Below, piece after piece: positions 40,798 to 56,347 of a stretch of DNA of 64,000 nt. The position numbers were made by a program, and so were the translations under genes. The stretch comes from Candidatus Caldarchaeum subterraneum (lineage in GTDB: Archaea > Thermoproteota > Nitrososphaeria_A > Caldarchaeales > Caldarchaeaceae), in assembly GCA_000270325.1 (NCBI GenBank), contig BA000048.1, positions 36,233 through 100,232 on the forward strand, given 5' to 3'. The notes under the pieces are model-generated. The model did not search any database. It was not told the origin of the DNA and saw nothing but the letters and a program-made list of their open reading frames with translations. Position 1 is the first letter of the stretch, and each line of letters starts with the position of its first letter.

Positions 40798-40873
40798 GGG
40801 GCCGTGGTCTAGCTTGGTCTAAGACTCCAGCCTGGGGCGCTGGCAATCCTGGGTTCAAATCCCAGCGGCCCCA
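40798..40873 (+). tRNA. tRNA-Pro (GGG)
   Basis: A 76-nt cloverleaf with acceptor GGGGCCG/CGGCCCC, discriminator A, D stem GTCT/AGAC, anticodon stem CCAGC/GCTGG around CTGGGGC (anticodon GGG), and T arm CTGGG-TTCAAAT-CCCAG. No intron and no encoded CCA (CATA follows). Confidence 0.95.
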
Positions 40874-40952: not shown

Positions 40953-41510
40953 ATGGATGTAGTTGGTTTCCTTGGCCAGATTGAGCCTCCTCTTCCGCCG
41001 CCTTGGCTTGACCCCGCTGTTTTCCTGTCAAACCTTTTCTGGGTGTTCCTGAGAACGTTTACGACGTTTGTCGTCGTCTTCATTCTAGGACTTGTCTCGC
41101 TTCGTGTTGTCGACTGGATAACTCCAGGTGTACGGGAGCTTGAACGAATCAGGGGTCATCCACTTGCGACGGCGCTTTTCGCCGCGGGCTTCTTCGTCTA
41201 CCTCTCCTTTGGCTACATCGCCTCGATGGCCTCACCAATCCCCGTGGGGCTGGAGACGGGAATAAGGTCTGGCCCCAACTTCAGCCCCCTCGTCTTGATA
41301 GGATACAAGCTTGTGACACTTCTTATCGGAGTTCTTCTCTCGTACGTGTTCGCGATAGTCTACTACCGTATACTGGCTAAGGTCGAGCCCTTCGGCCTCG
41401 ACTTGGATGATGTTGACAAGGAGCCGCTAGCCGTCGGCGTTTACCTCTTCGGCTACCTCGTCTTCCTCGGAGCAGTTGTCTACGTTGCGTTGATGCTGCC
41501 CGCGGCATAG
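40953..41510 (+). CDS. Polytopic membrane protein, first gene of a surface-protein cluster
   Basis: A ~185-residue protein with about four hydrophobic helices (FLRTFTTFVVVFILGLVSLRVV, ALFAAGFFVYLSFGYIASM, LVTLLIGVLLSYVFAIVYY and VYLFGYLVFLGAVVYVALM). The frame is open from GTG 40920, but GGAGGTG at 40940-40946 lies 6 nt before ATG 40953, which decides the start. No family is recognised. The gene is followed after 4 bp by the PrsW-like gene. Confidence 0.75.
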   Translation: MDVVGFLGQIEPPLPPPWLDPAVFLSNLFWVFLRTFTTFVVVFILGLVSLRVVDWITPGVRELERIRGHPLATALFAAGFFVYLSFGYIASMASPIPVGLETGIRSGPNFSPLVLIGYKLVTLLIGVLLSYVFAIVYYRILAKVEPFGLDLDDVDKEPLAVGVYLFGYLVFLGAVVYVALMLPAA

Positions 41511-41514
41511 AGAC

Positions 41515-42387
41515 ATGTCGCTCCGTGAAGGCTTCTCAACTCTTTTCAAGAAGCCGCAGCCCATCGTGAAGCCTACAGAGGAGGTTTACGCGGCGGGTGT
41601 AATCAGCCCCCGTATGTCTAGGCTTGTGCTGCTGGCGATTGGGGTTATGCTGGTGCTGGGTGTCGCGGCGCTTCTGGCCCAGGGGCTTTTCCCTATTCTC
41701 GCAACACTGACCTATTCTCTGATACCGGTGGTGCTGCTGCTGGGGTGGGCTATGAAAACCGATAGGTATGAGCCGGAGCCCAAGTCGCTTGTCATCATGG
41801 TGGCGGGAATAGGGGGATTTTTAGCCGCCGTGTTTACCTACCTACCGTTTCCAACGGGATTGGCGGCTTACTTGGTGAAGATAGGTTTGCTTGAAGTAGT
41901 TTTCTTCCTCGTTCTCTATGGGCTGGATGCGAACAGGGTGACTGGTAGAGAGTTCAACGACCACCTGGACGGGGCTGTGTATGGACTTGCTCTCGGCGCG
42001 GGATACATAGCTTTCTCCAACTTTCTCATAGCACAGAGCGGAGCCTATGTCACGCCCTTGGCCGCAACCTTGTTCACGTTGGAGAATTTTTTCACGATGG
42101 TGTTTCCCGGGTTGACGGGATGGTGGATAGGCTACGTCAAGGCAAAATATGTCTCCATAAGCTTTGCATCTCTTTTCACCGGGTTTGTTCCAGTTCTTCT
42201 CCTGAGGCTGGTGTATGAGGGGTTGTTGATAGGTTTCGCTGGTTTATCAATACCTGTGCGGGTCGCTGCCGTTACGTTGGCTGGGCTGTTTTTCCTCGCT
42301 CTTCTCGTGAGGAGAATATTTTGGGCCCTTGAGGATGAAAAGATTTGGGGCTACGCTTCTGGGCTGGCGCCGGTGGAGAAGAGATGA
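41515..42387 (+). CDS. PrsW-like (family M82-like) polytopic membrane protein
   Basis: A 290-residue protein with ~8 helices. The stretch DRYEPEP after helix 2 and EFNDHLDGAVYGLALGAGYIAFSNFLI resemble the PrsW intramembrane protease family (there DGxxYGxAxGLGFAxxEN). The usual Glu-Glu pair of PrsW appears here as a single Glu in KIGLLEVVFFLVLY, and the EN pair reads SN, so proteolytic activity is doubtful. Its stop overlaps the next ATG (ATGA), indicating coupling with the secreted zinc-ribbon protein. Confidence 0.6.
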   Translation: MSLREGFSTLFKKPQPIVKPTEEVYAAGVISPRMSRLVLLAIGVMLVLGVAALLAQGLFPILATLTYSLIPVVLLLGWAMKTDRYEPEPKSLVIMVAGIGGFLAAVFTYLPFPTGLAAYLVKIGLLEVVFFLVLYGLDANRVTGREFNDHLDGAVYGLALGAGYIAFSNFLIAQSGAYVTPLAATLFTLENFFTMVFPGLTGWWIGYVKAKYVSISFASLFTGFVPVLLLRLVYEGLLIGFAGLSIPVRVAAVTLAGLFFLALLVRRIFWALEDEKIWGYASGLAPVEKR

Positions 42388-43406
42388 AGCTACCCAAGAT
42401 TGCTGCGGTCATAGCCTTATTGCTGACGGTGTTGATGTTCTTCAACAGCTCCTGGGCTCAGGGCTCTCCGCCCCCCTACATCCAGCCCGGACTCGCCTTC
42501 GTCTACCAGCTTTTTGACCAGAAAACCCAACAAGCTGAAAACGCTTTTCAAAGATACATCATAGAGTCCGTGACATCTCAGGGGATAACAATATCCATCG
42601 TCTCCGACATCACTCAGTCTGGCAGGGTGACCGTTAACCCAAACGGGGAGTTCAAGCCGGGTGAGAGGATAGACCTTTGGATTCCGCCCGGAGTCTCTGC
42701 GGGGGCGCGGTTTAAGATGATGGGTGTGGATGCCGCCGTAATCCAGACAGGCTATGATATTGGGCAGGGGTTGAAGGTAACAGTGGCTGCGTCCACAGAC
42801 CAGTCTATCTTCTGGTTGTTCATAGAGGATGGCCCACAGCCCTACAACCAGTTAAAGGGTCTCTTGCTTGGTATCTTGTTTACTCAGAAGGGAAAAGGTC
42901 TCGCGTTGGTTAACATCGAGCAGGCGGGTGCCGTGACAACCACGTCCACCTACAGCACTACAACAAGGGCTACAACAGCGAGGCCTGTGACGACCACCAG
43001 AACAGCTGTGACCGGGGATAGAACCGAGACCGTTGTCGAGACTGAGACGGTTACCGAGACTGTGGTGGTGACCAGAACTGTTCAAACCGTTTCTACCTAT
43101 ACTACTACATCAACCTCATCAGTGAGCGTTCAAGCCGAAGGCCCTGCGGCCGGTATACCCTTGACCGTGGCCATACCTGTTGCCGCAGTCATCATAGGCG
43201 GTGGAATTTTCTTCGTGAGGTCAAGGAGGAGGCCTTTGCCGCCTACATATCCCTACCCAGCCTATCCACCTCCACCACCATATCCATCACCTTCGCCACA
43301 GCCGCCGCAGCAATTTATCCAGCCTGTTGGAGCCTGCCCAGCATGTCGGTTCCCACTATATCCCGGAGAATACATGTGTAGGAGGTGCGGATACCGTGTC
43401 GCATAA
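42384..43406 (+). CDS. Secreted, membrane-anchored protein with Thr-rich stalk and cytoplasmic zinc ribbon
   Basis: The ATG at 42384 overlaps the previous stop and gives a 340-residue protein with a signal peptide (AAVIALLLTVLMFFNSSWA). A ~160-residue beta-rich extracellular domain and a Thr/Val-rich stalk (TTSTYSTTTRATTARP and TETVTETVVVTRTV) follow. Then come a membrane helix (GIPLTVAIPVAAVIIGGGIFFV), a proline/tyrosine-rich cytoplasmic stretch, and a terminal zinc ribbon (CPACRFPLYPGEYMCRRCG). The combination of extracellular domain, stalk and cytoplasmic zinc ribbon suggests a surface sensor or scaffold. No known family is recognised. It overlaps the M6-like protease gene by 11 bp. Confidence 0.75.
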   Translation: MKLPKIAAVIALLLTVLMFFNSSWAQGSPPPYIQPGLAFVYQLFDQKTQQAENAFQRYIIESVTSQGITISIVSDITQSGRVTVNPNGEFKPGERIDLWIPPGVSAGARFKMMGVDAAVIQTGYDIGQGLKVTVAASTDQSIFWLFIEDGPQPYNQLKGLLLGILFTQKGKGLALVNIEQAGAVTTTSTYSTTTRATTARPVTTTRTAVTGDRTETVVETETVTETVVVTRTVQTVSTYTTTSTSSVSVQAEGPAAGIPLTVAIPVAAVIIGGGIFFVRSRRRPLPPTYPYPAYPPPPPYPSPSPQPPQQFIQPVGACPACRFPLYPGEYMCRRCGYRVA

Positions 43407-45027
43407 AACATATGCCGCGTTACTGGCTTTTCTAATGATTGCTGTAATGATTTATCCCGTCACGGGGCAGGAGGAGTTTGAATGGAATCGGCAGATACCG
43501 TTTCTAGGGGCGCAGCCTACTCTAGTCCTCCTGGTTCAGTTTAGCGACGTGAAGCTAAGCATCTCGAGGACACAGGCTGAGCAGATTGTGAAGATAGTTG
43601 ACAGCTTTGTTAGAGATGCATCATATGGCAAGACATGGCTGGAATACACGATTCATCCAAAGGTGATAACGCTGCCTAAACCCATGTCCTACTACGGTGG
43701 ACCATCCGCCGGTGCACAGCGTGGAGACGACAACCAAAGAATTTTGGAGTTTCATCTAACAACTATACAGCTAGCCAAGAAGGATGGGGTAGACCTAAGC
43801 CAATACAAACACGTGATAACGATTCACGCGGGAAAAGATGAAGCAACGGGCGGCTCAGCAAACGACATCTGGAGCCACTGCAACTGTGTAGCCCCAAAGA
43901 TTCTCTATTTTTTGATCGAGCAGTACGGATTCGACACTGTAGAATCAGAGTTGAAGCGGCAGGGATATGATTGGCTGGTTGAACTTTTTATGCATAGGAC
44001 GCGGAACGGCGAGGGTAGATTGCTTTCGGGAATAGAGACTGTCGCCGAGTACGATTTTCCATCTGTTATGGCTCATGAATTCACCCACAGCATGTGGATA
44101 TCTGACCTCTATGTTTACGCCAAAGACGGTTATAGCACGGGGAGCGAGGTCGGCATATGGACTAACATGGACGCCGGCTCATTCTTTGACCCGCCAGTGG
44201 ACATAGACGGCTGGAGCAAGTATCTTCTGGGCTGGGTGGAGGCCATAACAGTTGAAAAAGACGGAGAATACACTATTCATACTCTCGACAAACCCGATGA
44301 GCCACACGCCCTCATCATGCCGATAAACGACAAAGAATACTATTTTATACATGCACGTAGGCCTGTGAAGAATGATGCGGCGCTGCCAGGGCCAGGCATC
44401 CTAGTCATGAAAGTAAACAAATTCAAAAACCGGAATGTTGAGGGGGAGCCTTTTATGGCGCAGCTTTTCGACGCAAACCCAGACACCCCAAGAGAATGCG
44501 AACAATATGCGACCGGATTCAGAGACCCGCGTAGTTTTATGACTTTGTGTGTGAAGTTTGACGCACCTTTCTACGGCCCAGATGGCTACAGCGCTACATG
44601 GGTCTCAAAAGTTGCTGGCGGCCGAACGTATGGAACTTATCAGTTAAACTTGGCTAACTCCGAGTATGTGACGGAGGAGGGTTTCAGGATTTCTGTGTTG
44701 TCGTTTGATGAGAGCGCGGGTGTGGCGAGGATAAGGGTGTCGCTTGGTGGCCAGCCTCAAGAGGAGGGCGGTGAAACAACCGTTGTCACCTTAACACGAA
44801 CAGTCACCGGAACAGCCACTGAGACACTCTACACGACCACCACCATCGTCGGAACAGAGACAAGAACAGTCGTCGTCACCGTAACAACAACCCAGCTCCC
44901 AGTCTCAACAGGAGAAGAATACATCTCAATAGCCATTATACTTGCCGCACTCCTCTTCACAGTAGCGATAATCGCGTTGGGCCGAAGAAGACCAAGGATG
45001 CCTCCACCGCCGCCCCCTGCATGGTAG
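43396..45027 (+). CDS. M6-like (immune-inhibitor-A type) surface metalloprotease
   Basis: GTG 43396 is chosen: GGAGGTG (43381-43387) is 8 nt upstream and a signal peptide follows directly (YAALLAFLMIAVMIYPVTG). The ~543-residue protein has the zinc site MAHEFTHSMWISDLY (HExxHxxxxxD, as in M6 peptidases), a downstream NMDAGSFFDPP turn region, a beta-rich C-terminal domain, a Thr/Val-rich stalk (TLTRTVTGTATETLYTTTT), a membrane helix and a short RRRPRMPPPPPPAW tail. It is predicted to digest proteins outside the cell while anchored. Stalk and tail resemble those of the preceding gene product. Confidence 0.8.
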   Translation: MSHKTYAALLAFLMIAVMIYPVTGQEEFEWNRQIPFLGAQPTLVLLVQFSDVKLSISRTQAEQIVKIVDSFVRDASYGKTWLEYTIHPKVITLPKPMSYYGGPSAGAQRGDDNQRILEFHLTTIQLAKKDGVDLSQYKHVITIHAGKDEATGGSANDIWSHCNCVAPKILYFLIEQYGFDTVESELKRQGYDWLVELFMHRTRNGEGRLLSGIETVAEYDFPSVMAHEFTHSMWISDLYVYAKDGYSTGSEVGIWTNMDAGSFFDPPVDIDGWSKYLLGWVEAITVEKDGEYTIHTLDKPDEPHALIMPINDKEYYFIHARRPVKNDAALPGPGILVMKVNKFKNRNVEGEPFMAQLFDANPDTPRECEQYATGFRDPRSFMTLCVKFDAPFYGPDGYSATWVSKVAGGRTYGTYQLNLANSEYVTEEGFRISVLSFDESAGVARIRVSLGGQPQEEGGETTVVTLTRTVTGTATETLYTTTTIVGTETRTVVVTVTTTQLPVSTGEEYISIAIILAALLFTVAIIALGRRRPRMPPPPPPAW

Positions 45028-45076: not shown

Positions 45077-45931
45077 TTGGCTGGAAAACCCGTCATCGAG
45101 ATTGCTTTTGACACTCCACGGATGGAGGAGAAGCTGCTGGCCAAGGCTGTGACCGCAAAAGGCGCCGAACTCCGGCTGACAAACGTCAAACAGAATGTCT
45201 TCACCCTCCAGAAAACCTCTCTAGATGTCTGTCTCGTGCGATGCGTCTCCCTCTACAGCGCCATACACACAGCAGCCTTGAGAGAGGGCTCAGGAGTCCG
45301 CAGCATAAACAGCTCCGAAGCCATTTACCTAGCCGGCGACAAGGTCTTGACAGTTTCGAGACTCAAGTCGGCGAACCTGCCTATCCCGAGGACAGCTGTG
45401 GGACTGAACACGAGAGCGGCTGAAAAGGCCTTGGAGAAAGTGGGGTTTCCCGCCGTCGACAAACCGCCCATCGGAAGCTGGGGAAGGCTCATCGCCCTCG
45501 TACGAGACATCGACGACTTCAAGCTCGTCGCCGAACACCGCGAAATGTTGCCCAGCGGCTACATGAAAACCCACATCATACAGGAATACATCGACCTGCC
45601 GAACCGCGACATCAGAACTCTCGTCGTAGGCGATGAGGTCGTTGGAGCAATCTATCGTTACAGGGCTTCAAACGACTGGAGGACAAACGTAGCACTCGGC
45701 GGAGAACCTGTTCAAGCATTTCTCAACGACGAGCTCGTGGAGATAAGCCTCAGGGCCGCGAAAGCGGTGAAGGGTGATGTTGTAAGCATAGATGTCTTCG
45801 AGACAACGGATGGCAGCTACCTCGTCAACGAGGTCAACGGCGTCCCCGAGTTCAAGGGACTGATGAAGGCAACAGGAGTAAACGTTCCCGAGAAAATCAT
45901 CGACTACGTGATTGCCTCAACAAGAAGATAG
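45077..45931 (+). CDS. lysX: LysX/ArgX-type ATP-grasp ligase
   Basis: A 284-residue RimK-like ATP-grasp enzyme that couples the amino-group carrier protein LysW to alpha-aminoadipate or glutamate, protecting the amino group in lysine/arginine synthesis. Seen: ATP-binding FPAVDKPPIGSWGRLIALV, IIQEYIDLPNRDIRTLVVGD, and the metal-binding end YLVNEVNGVPEFKGL. The form VNGVPEFKG differs from the VNHTxEFK of lysine-specific LysX and fits glutamate-using (ArgX) or dual-function forms; this is from memory. LysW and the other pathway genes are not beside it. Start is a TTG. Confidence 0.82.
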   Translation: MAGKPVIEIAFDTPRMEEKLLAKAVTAKGAELRLTNVKQNVFTLQKTSLDVCLVRCVSLYSAIHTAALREGSGVRSINSSEAIYLAGDKVLTVSRLKSANLPIPRTAVGLNTRAAEKALEKVGFPAVDKPPIGSWGRLIALVRDIDDFKLVAEHREMLPSGYMKTHIIQEYIDLPNRDIRTLVVGDEVVGAIYRYRASNDWRTNVALGGEPVQAFLNDELVEISLRAAKAVKGDVVSIDVFETTDGSYLVNEVNGVPEFKGLMKATGVNVPEKIIDYVIASTRR

Positions 45932-46427
45932 CGCGGGTTCTACATCCATCGCATAGCTCGCCGCTTTTCGAGTCAACCTCGGCGACAGAGTTGCTGAAAC
46001 TCATGACACAGTATCTTGCGCTGCAGTGCCCCAGACCAATCAAGTGCCCAACCTCGTGAACAGCCTCCTTCAAAACCCTTTCAAGTAGCAGAGACCTCCC
46101 AGACCCACCAACTTCTACAGCGGGCTTCAGCCTATGGATTGAAAGAACACCGACGGGTGGAGGAGCATATCCGAAGACAAAATTCAGGCCCTCGACATAA
46201 AGGTCTCTATCTGTGAGGATGAGGACAAGCGACCCCTCGGCATGCATATGCTTCACAAGTTTTTCCGCGTTATACTGCCGTCTCTGAGGGTTCCAAGCCT
46301 TCTCGGCAAAAGACACAAAACCATTCTCAACAAAGACATCAAACCCATAAACCTCCGCAATCCTCGCCGCGGCAGCCGAACCGAGTCCCTCGTCGCCCGT
46401 CTCATTCAAAACCTTTAATCGCAACAT
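45897..46427 (-). CDS. amzA: Archaemetzincin
   Basis: A zinc metalloprotease of the metzincin clan. The motif HEVGHLIGLGHCSARYCVMSFS contains HExxHxxGxxH, the following Cys, and the Met-turn. A further CDGC completes the second zinc site typical of archaemetzincins. The frame runs upstream to 46574, but that would overlap the divergent kinase gene. The ATG at 46427 gives 176 residues, the usual size. NPQRRQYNAEKLV is also a family segment. Its 3' end overlaps the convergent lysX gene by 35 bp. Confidence 0.9.
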   Translation of the reverse strand: MLRLKVLNETGDEGLGSAAAARIAEVYGFDVFVENGFVSFAEKAWNPQRRQYNAEKLVKHMHAEGSLVLILTDRDLYVEGLNFVFGYAPPPVGVLSIHRLKPAVEVGGSGRSLLLERVLKEAVHEVGHLIGLGHCSARYCVMSFSNSVAEVDSKSGELCDGCRTRAIFLLRQSRSR

Positions 46428-46449
46428 CTCCAACAACCCGCGGGAAAGG

Positions 46450-47025
46450 ATGATAATATGGGTGACGGGGACTCCGGGGGTAGGCAAGACAACCACGGGT
46501 AGAATGCTTGCAAAACGTCTCGGAATAGGTTTCATAGACCTTCCCGAATTCGTATCAGCGAACAACCTGTACACGGAGAGGCTGGGGGACGGTACGATGG
46601 TTGTCGACCCACGGAGGCTTGAACGTCATCTATCTAGAAATGTTAAGGAGGATACGGTCATAGCGGGACACATCACGGTCAGGGTCCGAGGACATGAAAC
46701 AAGATGCATAGTTCTCCGACTCAACCCTCTCCAGCTCAGGAAAAGGCTTGAGGAAAGAGGCTACAGCGTCGAGAAGGTCGCGGAAAACGTGGAGGCAGAG
46801 TTTCTCGGAGTGGTTTACCTCGACGCGATACGTGTGTTCGGGAAGAACCGTGTAAGCCAGATAGATGTGACTGGGAAAGAGGCTAGCGATGTGGTTAACC
46901 GATGTGTTGATGTCTTGGAGGGAAGAGATGCTGGCGATGATGTTGAGTGGATGAGCCGCTTAGATGAAGACATCCTCTCTCAGCTTTTACGCTATCTCTC
47001 AACAGCCAAAACCAGAGGATTGTGA
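46450..47025 (+). CDS. Adenylate kinase 6/Fap7-type NMP kinase
   Basis: A 191-residue P-loop kinase of the AK6/Fap7 family. P-loop GTPGVGKTTTGRMLA, IDLPEFVSANNLY, and a lid region followed by the NVEAEFLGVVYLDA helix typical of this family. Eukaryotic and archaeal Fap7 assists late small-subunit maturation together with uS11/eS26-type proteins. Its position immediately before the ABCE1 gene, with Dim2-like KH and RIO1 nearby, supports that role. Confidence 0.88.
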   Translation: MIIWVTGTPGVGKTTTGRMLAKRLGIGFIDLPEFVSANNLYTERLGDGTMVVDPRRLERHLSRNVKEDTVIAGHITVRVRGHETRCIVLRLNPLQLRKRLEERGYSVEKVAENVEAEFLGVVYLDAIRVFGKNRVSQIDVTGKEASDVVNRCVDVLEGRDAGDDVEWMSRLDEDILSQLLRYLSTAKTRGL

Positions 47026-56223: not shown

Positions 56224-56347
56224 TCCCGCGGGCAGGATTTGAACCTGCGACCACCCGGTTTCCATGTAGCCTGGCGGGCTGAACATCGGCTCAGCCGCGG
56301 GGCTGGCCGCTACAGCCGGGCGCTCTACCAGGCTGAGCTACCGCGGG
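56224..56347 (-). tRNA. tRNA-Tyr (GTA) with intron
   Basis: A 124-nt gene on the minus strand. Exon 1 is 56347-56310, the intron 56309-56260, and exon 2 56259-56224. The mature 74-nt tRNA has acceptor CCCGCGG/CCGCGGG, anticodon stem CCCGG/CCGGG around CTGTAGA (anticodon GTA) and T arm GCAGG-TTCAAAT-CCTGC. CCA is encoded directly after (56223-56221). Its first 23 nt overlap the end of the upstream membrane-protein gene on the same strand. Confidence 0.93.
56260..56309 (-). other. tRNA-Tyr intron (50 nt)
   Basis: Located one nucleotide 3' of the anticodon, the canonical 37/38 position. The intron is GC-rich and can pair with the anticodon region to give a bulge-helix-bulge for the archaeal splicing endonuclease. 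Boundaries were set by completing the 7-nt anticodon loop, so they may be off by one or two bases. Confidence 0.8.

Follow-up and report, generated by a model that had tools for sequence, protein, structure and literature searches.

A two-module archaeal operon that may place a membrane-anchored M6-like metalloprotease under the control of a pseudo-PrsW protein

The operon and its two modules

In this study, we analyzed the window G000:C1:36233-100232, that is, the whole stretch of 64,000 nucleotides taken from the single-contig genome (1,680,938 bp) of the archaeon Candidatus Caldarchaeum subterraneum. At positions 40953-45027 of the window, four tightly packed genes on the (+) strand, named P1, P2, P3, and P4, encode a DUF350 family membrane protein, a pseudo-PrsW, a stalk protein ending in a zinc ribbon, and a membrane-anchored M6-like metalloprotease, respectively. 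Comparison with related genomes indicates that this quartet is two separate modules joined at one locus: module A, consisting of DUF350 and an anchored peptidase, and module B, consisting of P2 and P3. By analogy with an animal system, we tentatively propose that the surface protease encoded here is anchored in the membrane and controlled by a pseudoprotease, an arrangement iRhom-ADAM17-like in logic and unrelated by descent, a reading to which we give slightly less than an even chance.

P1 (40953..41510), P2 (41515..42387), and P3 (42384..43406) start with ATG and P4 (43396..45027) with GTG. A preliminary description of this DNA had the genes overlapping or 4 bp apart, and the start and stop positions agree with it: a 4-bp gap separates P1 from P2, P2 and P3 share a 4-bp ATGA overlap, and P3 and P4 overlap by 11 bp. 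A GGAGGTG-type site precedes P1 and a AGGAGGTG site precedes P4. The same description had listed a polytopic protein, a PrsW-like protein, a zinc-ribbon stalk protein, and an anchored M6-like protease, and this composition was confirmed by profiles and alignments, as were, in the sequence, the Thr/Val stalks and membrane-plus-proline tails of P3 and P4. It had left out that P1 belongs to DUF350, that P2 has lost the PrsW catalytic residues, and that the P2-P3 cassette appears to have been exchanged.

The conservation of the quartet was then investigated in 44 genomes of the order, in a sample that held one genome per species, many of them incomplete. Gene-neighborhood comparison showed that the full quartet is present in the same order and strand in six of these genomes from three families (G000, G003, G001, G018, G028, and G029). 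Because the same gene order recurs in this way, the quartet is not a chance juxtaposition but a conserved block, as had been proposed, and its distribution within the order is patchy. At a best E < 1e-50, P1 and P4 each have close homologues in 10 of the 44 genomes, and these ten are exactly the same for both. By our own arithmetic, which ignores the kinship between genomes, the chance of full overlap between two such sets of ten is about 4e-10.

The two pairs also occur apart. In G006 and G024, P1 and P4 are present at the locus without P2-P3. In G027 (L029:9658-10116), P1 and P4 are kept, and between them lies a 152-codon remnant that holds part of P2 and ends in a zinc ribbon, indicating that the DUF350-M6 pair persists after the loss of P2-P3. 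The locus of G002 is split across contigs and was left out of this judgement, and G005 has an orphan DUF350 fragment. Conversely, P2-P3 pairs were found without DUF350 and M6 in G338, G303, and G233, as described below. The reading of the quartet as one indivisible four-gene machine was thus rejected. The premise that the genes stay together in relatives holds within each pair, since P3 was never seen without P2 nor the anchored M6 protease without DUF350, and fails between the pairs.

Module A: DUF350 and an anchored ectopeptidase

P1 matched Pfam DUF350 (PF03994) with 42.7 bits (E 7.5e-11) against a gathering score of 26, and is therefore a member of this YjfL-like family. Hydropathy predicted about four hydrophobic segments, and the acidic loop PFGxDLDDVDKEP is conserved. 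The P1 homologues in the ten genomes have identities of 51-96%.

A search of 398 genomes of the phylum with the P1 profile (E < 1e-15) yielded 14 further strong relatives beyond the order. In all 14 of these loci (L090-L101, L082, L085, and L088; other Thermoproteota), the gene directly 3' of DUF350 encodes a secreted member of the transglutaminase-like superfamily, with a gap of 6 to 16 bp where measured. The Pfam domain Transglut_core scored above its cut-off in two of the five transglutaminase-like proteins tested and below it in the rest; the catalytic residues, namely the cysteine of GDCED, the histidine, and the acidic residue of WIWVEA, are kept in all 14. In this set, G276 is masked and G284 is truncated at a contig end. 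Nearly all the complete proteins have a C-terminal hydrophobic helix with a basic tail, and two have a polyproline tail resembling that of P4. No description of the DUF350-transglutaminase-like gene pair was found in the literature searched, as far as its open-licence titles and abstracts go. These results indicate that module A is DUF350 with an anchored ectopeptidase, in which the enzyme varies and the membrane partner stays the same.

P4, the enzyme of module A in the window, is predicted to be secreted and anchored at its C-terminal part, where a Thr/Val stalk is followed by a membrane helix and then by a PPPPPP tail. It matched the M6 profile TIGR03296 with 89 bits (E 4.9e-25) against a curated cut-off of 110.8, and it is below the cut-off of PF05547, which its relative in L030 passes and which matches eight of ten P4 relatives. 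A weak match to the immune inhibitor A structure 4yu5 was also obtained. P4 keeps HExxHxxxxxD and the Met-turn, and H227, E228, H231, and D237 are invariant in alignment A4; the zinc-binding motif HEFTHSMWISD lies at 44074..44106 (+). The glycine of the M6 motif (HExxHxxGxxD) is a tryptophan in P4 of the window and seven relatives, and is retained in G024 and G006. From these residues, protease activity of P4 is likely but not assured. As a separate observation, the M6 protease of G024 (L030:8797-10476) itself has a C-terminal zinc ribbon and is convergent to the DUF350 gene.

Module B: a pseudo-PrsW and a zinc-ribbon stalk protein

PrsW proteins have the catalytic motifs EExxK in transmembrane helix (TMH) 3, a His in TMH5, and HxxxD/N in TMH6 (PMC4602095). 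P2, a multi-pass protein, matched the PrsW profile NF033739 with 22.1 bits (E 9.7e-05) against a cut-off of 225, a weak match. It did not match Pfam PF13367, and three of the six P2 relatives matched it weakly (best E 0.0097). P2 nevertheless aligned cleanly along its full length with true archaeal PrsWs, and DxxEPEP and EFNDHxDGxxYG are common to both. In the six quartet P2s, the catalytic motifs are absent or broken: one glutamate of the EE pair is retained together with the EPEP and NDHxDG motifs, and the Lys of EExxK, the TMH5 His, and the TMH6 His are lost in all six. Since P2 failed both the profile cut-off and the catalytic-residue test, these alignments indicate that it is a pseudo-member of the PrsW superfamily by descent.

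This loss extends to all of module B. Relatives of P2 are also present beyond the order, as P2 profile searches showed. In a residue table of 19 PrsW relatives, intact EExxK and the TMH6 His were lost in 10 of 10 module-B proteins and the TMH5 His was missing in nine of them, whereas EExxK, AEN, and both His were kept in all nine standalone archaeal PrsWs, several of which, of active type, have N-terminally fused zinc ribbons. In the PrsW tree, all module-B proteins lie on one side of a single branch (support 78/75). The AlphaFold model of P2, built from a shallow alignment of six sequences, is all-helical with a predicted local distance difference test (pLDDT) score of 70.7. The A2 profile gave no match against PDB sequences.

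In P3, a signal peptide and a beta-rich ectodomain (residues 28-182; 42465..42929, +) are followed by a Thr/Val stalk, a single membrane helix, a tail rich in Pro, and finally a CPAC...CRRC four-cysteine zinc ribbon, CPACRFPLYPGEYMCRRCG (43335..43391, +). The ribbon is predicted to be cytoplasmic; the topology of these proteins was read from hydropathy and the appearance of signal peptides. Zn_Ribbon_1 matched two of the six P3 members. In the AlphaFold model of the ectodomain, built from six sequences, the pLDDT is mostly 70-87. Its top Foldseek match was LolA (E 9.1e-4, probability 0.99), but the target template modelling score was 0.34 and the root-mean-square deviation 10.3. A LolA/RseB-like ectodomain would fit a lipid or envelope sensor, which this match suggests only weakly, as it is too weak to build on.

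Among the genomes of the order, full-length P3 is confined to the six that have P2. Outside it, a degenerate PrsW gene in G338 overlaps a stalk gene by 4 bp; the C-terminus of the stalk protein is a zinc ribbon, and its ectodomain is related to that of P3 (E 2e-12 with an ectodomain-only profile, among seven test proteins). In G303 and G233, both from a single genus in another family, the stalk-zinc-ribbon gene comes first, followed by a degenerate PrsW and a secreted metzincin; this anchored metzincin carries HEVGHVLGLHH without an M6 match. The P1 profile search of the phylum found no DUF350 relative in G338, G303, or G233. These results indicate that module B is a P2-P3 pair that two further families have in the absence of DUF350. 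The independent triad with a different metzincin also supports the earlier view that a PrsW-family protein is associated with a zinc-ribbon stalk protein and an anchored metalloprotease.

Divergence of the P2-P3 cassette

We compared the window with the sister metagenome-assembled genome (MAG) G003 (L011). The nucleotide identity was mostly 85-95% over 19 kb, and mostly 80-98% in 200-bp bins. From about 41,600 to 43,400, it was 63-72%. Over P2-P3 (window 41510-43480 against L011), the nucleotide difference was about 32%, an identity of about 68%. The synonymous difference was 0.67 in P2 and 0.77 in P3, compared with 0.40 in P1, 0.33 in P4, and 0.19-0.33 in the genes on either side. The divergence is bordered by the stop of P1 on one side and the junction of P3 with P4 on the other, although P1 in its 3' half and P4 in its middle part also show somewhat raised values. 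P2 and P3 have thus diverged as a unit. Because the two Caldarchaeum P2-P3 alleles still group together in the tree, the simplest reading is that a diverged allele, itself derived from the genus, replaced P2-P3 as a block. Diversification may be ongoing, which one genome pair is too little to prove. An assembly error as the source of the divergence is possible but unlikely, because the divergence stops at gene borders.

Proposed mechanism and comparison with known systems

In gamma-secretase, APH-1 has the role of a scaffold. We propose that P2, a dead PrsW-family protein, would likewise be a scaffold that recognizes transmembrane segments, as iRhom does for ADAM17, and may scaffold or gate the membrane segment of P4. 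P4 would be a metalloprotease of M6 type that faces outward and is held in place by its single membrane helix, and P1 the constant membrane partner of this anchored peptidase. P3, as the obligate partner of P2, could be a sensor, an adaptor, or the first substrate, with its ectodomain and stalk outside and its zinc ribbon inside. Because several standalone active archaeal PrsWs carry N-terminally fused ribbons, a Rosetta-stone argument suggests that the P3 ribbon docks inside, probably on P2, where the fused ribbons sit. P2-P3 would then position or gate P4 in a physical complex, so that the cutting or shedding of surface proteins may answer either an outside ligand or the inside zinc-ribbon side.

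It has been reported that iRhom2, a dead rhomboid, binds the membrane segment of ADAM17 and restrains the protease (PMC11248996). In that pair, as in this operon, a polytopic relative of an intramembrane protease that lacks catalytic residues accompanies a single-pass, outward-facing metalloprotease (PMC11248996), and we infer that the two would work jointly here. The families differ, Rhomboid and ADAM in the animal system against PrsW and M6 in the archaeal one, and the locus adds DUF350 and a zinc-ribbon stalk protein. PrsW, CAAX proteases, and APH-1 form one superfamily (PMC4602095). The role proposed for P2 resembles that of APH-1, a superfamily member used as a scaffold beside a protease; however, the locus has no presenilin-like protease, and its own protease acts outside the membrane. 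In Bacillus subtilis, PrsW is the site-1 protease of the anti-sigma factor RsiW (PMC4602095). P2 is a relative of that PrsW and P3, like RsiW, crosses the membrane once and has a domain predicted to lie in the cytoplasm, but P2 lacks the catalytic motifs, P3 has no anti-sigma-factor domain inside, and the locus adds an anchored metalloprotease. P4 resembles immune inhibitor A and other M6 proteases in its HExxHxxxxxD motif and Met-turn, with a TIGR03296 match below the curated cut-off and a weak match to 4yu5, and differs from them in its stalk and membrane anchor and in the tryptophan of the quartet clade. Bacterial DUF350/YjfL proteins occur in PSP and spermidine-synthase operons (PMC11237479). 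P1 shares the Pfam family with them, whereas no PspA, polyamine, or potassium-channel genes were seen here and the partner is an anchored ectopeptidase. The preliminary description had known of no system with this composition, and among open-licence papers no title or abstract describing such a combination was found.

A broader proposal is that an archaeal family of dead-PrsW cofactors, evolved from an intramembrane protease and working with dedicated zinc-ribbon stalk receptors, controls unrelated anchored metalloproteases (M6 in Caldarchaeales, another metzincin elsewhere) in a way that parallels, in prokaryotes, the control of shedding by iRhom-ADAM17; strains would exchange the cassette of receptor and cofactor as a whole. 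We regard this generalization as possible but doubtful. If true, it would be a prokaryotic case of an animal logic, in which a dead intramembrane protease controls a live anchored one. DUF350, a domain of unknown function, would gain a testable context in archaea, where anchored ectopeptidases have it as their constant partner, and the locus would be a concrete handle on archaeal surface cutting and remodeling.

Several observations weigh against control of P4 by P2-P3. Because P1 and P4 exist without P2-P3 in G006, G024, and G027, the latter pair is not always needed, and the activity of P4 is not assured because the quartet proteases have a tryptophan in place of the M6 motif glycine. In G018, the P3 zinc ribbon has lost one cysteine, and the stalk ectodomains of G303 and G233 have no detectable relation to the P3 ectodomain. 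The branch support of 78/75 is modest for a single origin of the pseudo-PrsWs, and the six-sequence P2 model gave no PDB match in Foldseek.

Alternative explanations

P4 might instead be a nutrient peptidase that digests external protein as food, with P1 as its anchor and P2-P3 as aids to export, folding, or anchoring, without regulation or a signal. The existence of the P1-P4 pair alone and the pairing of DUF350 with a transglutaminase-like ectoenzyme in other archaea would fit this. However, P2-P3 is found apart from DUF350 and M6 and beside another protease, and it would be odd for a chaperone to have a zinc ribbon in the cytoplasm and to lie in a cassette that changes fast and has apparently been exchanged. 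We consider this explanation unlikely.

It is quite unlikely that the locus serves outside-in signaling, as the preliminary description had proposed, in which P3 would sense a peptide or a surface change and its ribbon relay this to a cytoplasmic, perhaps transcriptional, partner. The predicted topology of P3, the weak RseB/LolA-like fold of its ectodomain, and the recurrence of zinc ribbons on neighbors (PRC-barrel-zinc-ribbon genes and active zinc-ribbon PrsWs) point in this direction, but the operon has no regulator gene, no ribbon partner was identified, and the ribbon of G018 is broken.

The sharp borders of the P2-P3 divergence between the two Caldarchaeum genomes and the patchy distribution in the order could also reflect a conflict or recognition locus. 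P2-P3 would then be a variable surface cassette under diversifying selection, related to virus attachment or strain antagonism, and the protease would target hostile proteins. This is distinctly improbable: the comparison rests on one close genome pair, and no recognizable toxin, immunity, or defense gene adjoins the operon among the open reading frames (ORFs) inspected.

That P2 is a working intramembrane protease with altered chemistry, cleaving P3 in regulated intramembrane proteolysis, is hardly credible, as the glutamate and the two motifs kept in quartet members would speak for it but the residue table, with the Lys and both His lost in all six, disfavors an active PrsW.

Neighboring genes

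A tRNA-Pro (GGG) gene (40798..40873, +) lies directly upstream and marks the operon boundary. A RimK/LysX-like gene (45077-45931) was rejected as a fifth member, being 3' of the operon in the sister MAG and not at other quartet loci. Genes for a secreted 461-amino-acid protein, a polytopic 387-amino-acid protein, and often a PRC-barrel-zinc-ribbon protein recur beside DUF350-M6 (L012:2636-5687, L013, L030, and L031). They were rejected as core members: the genome of the window has the first two at a different place, L104:6121-8703, and G004 has the 387-amino-acid gene without a close DUF350 or M6 relative. Neither of these two proteins had a Pfam match or a credible NCBIfam match. The P0003 search found no paralogue in its own genome.

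Two further features of the window were observed. An ORF at 45897-46574 (-) with HEVGHLIGLGHC...CVMSFS is archaemetzincin-like by motif and overlaps the start of a kinase-like ORF. At 56224-56347 (-), an Rfam tRNA match across 124 bases, missed by ARAGORN, is probably an intron-containing tRNA.

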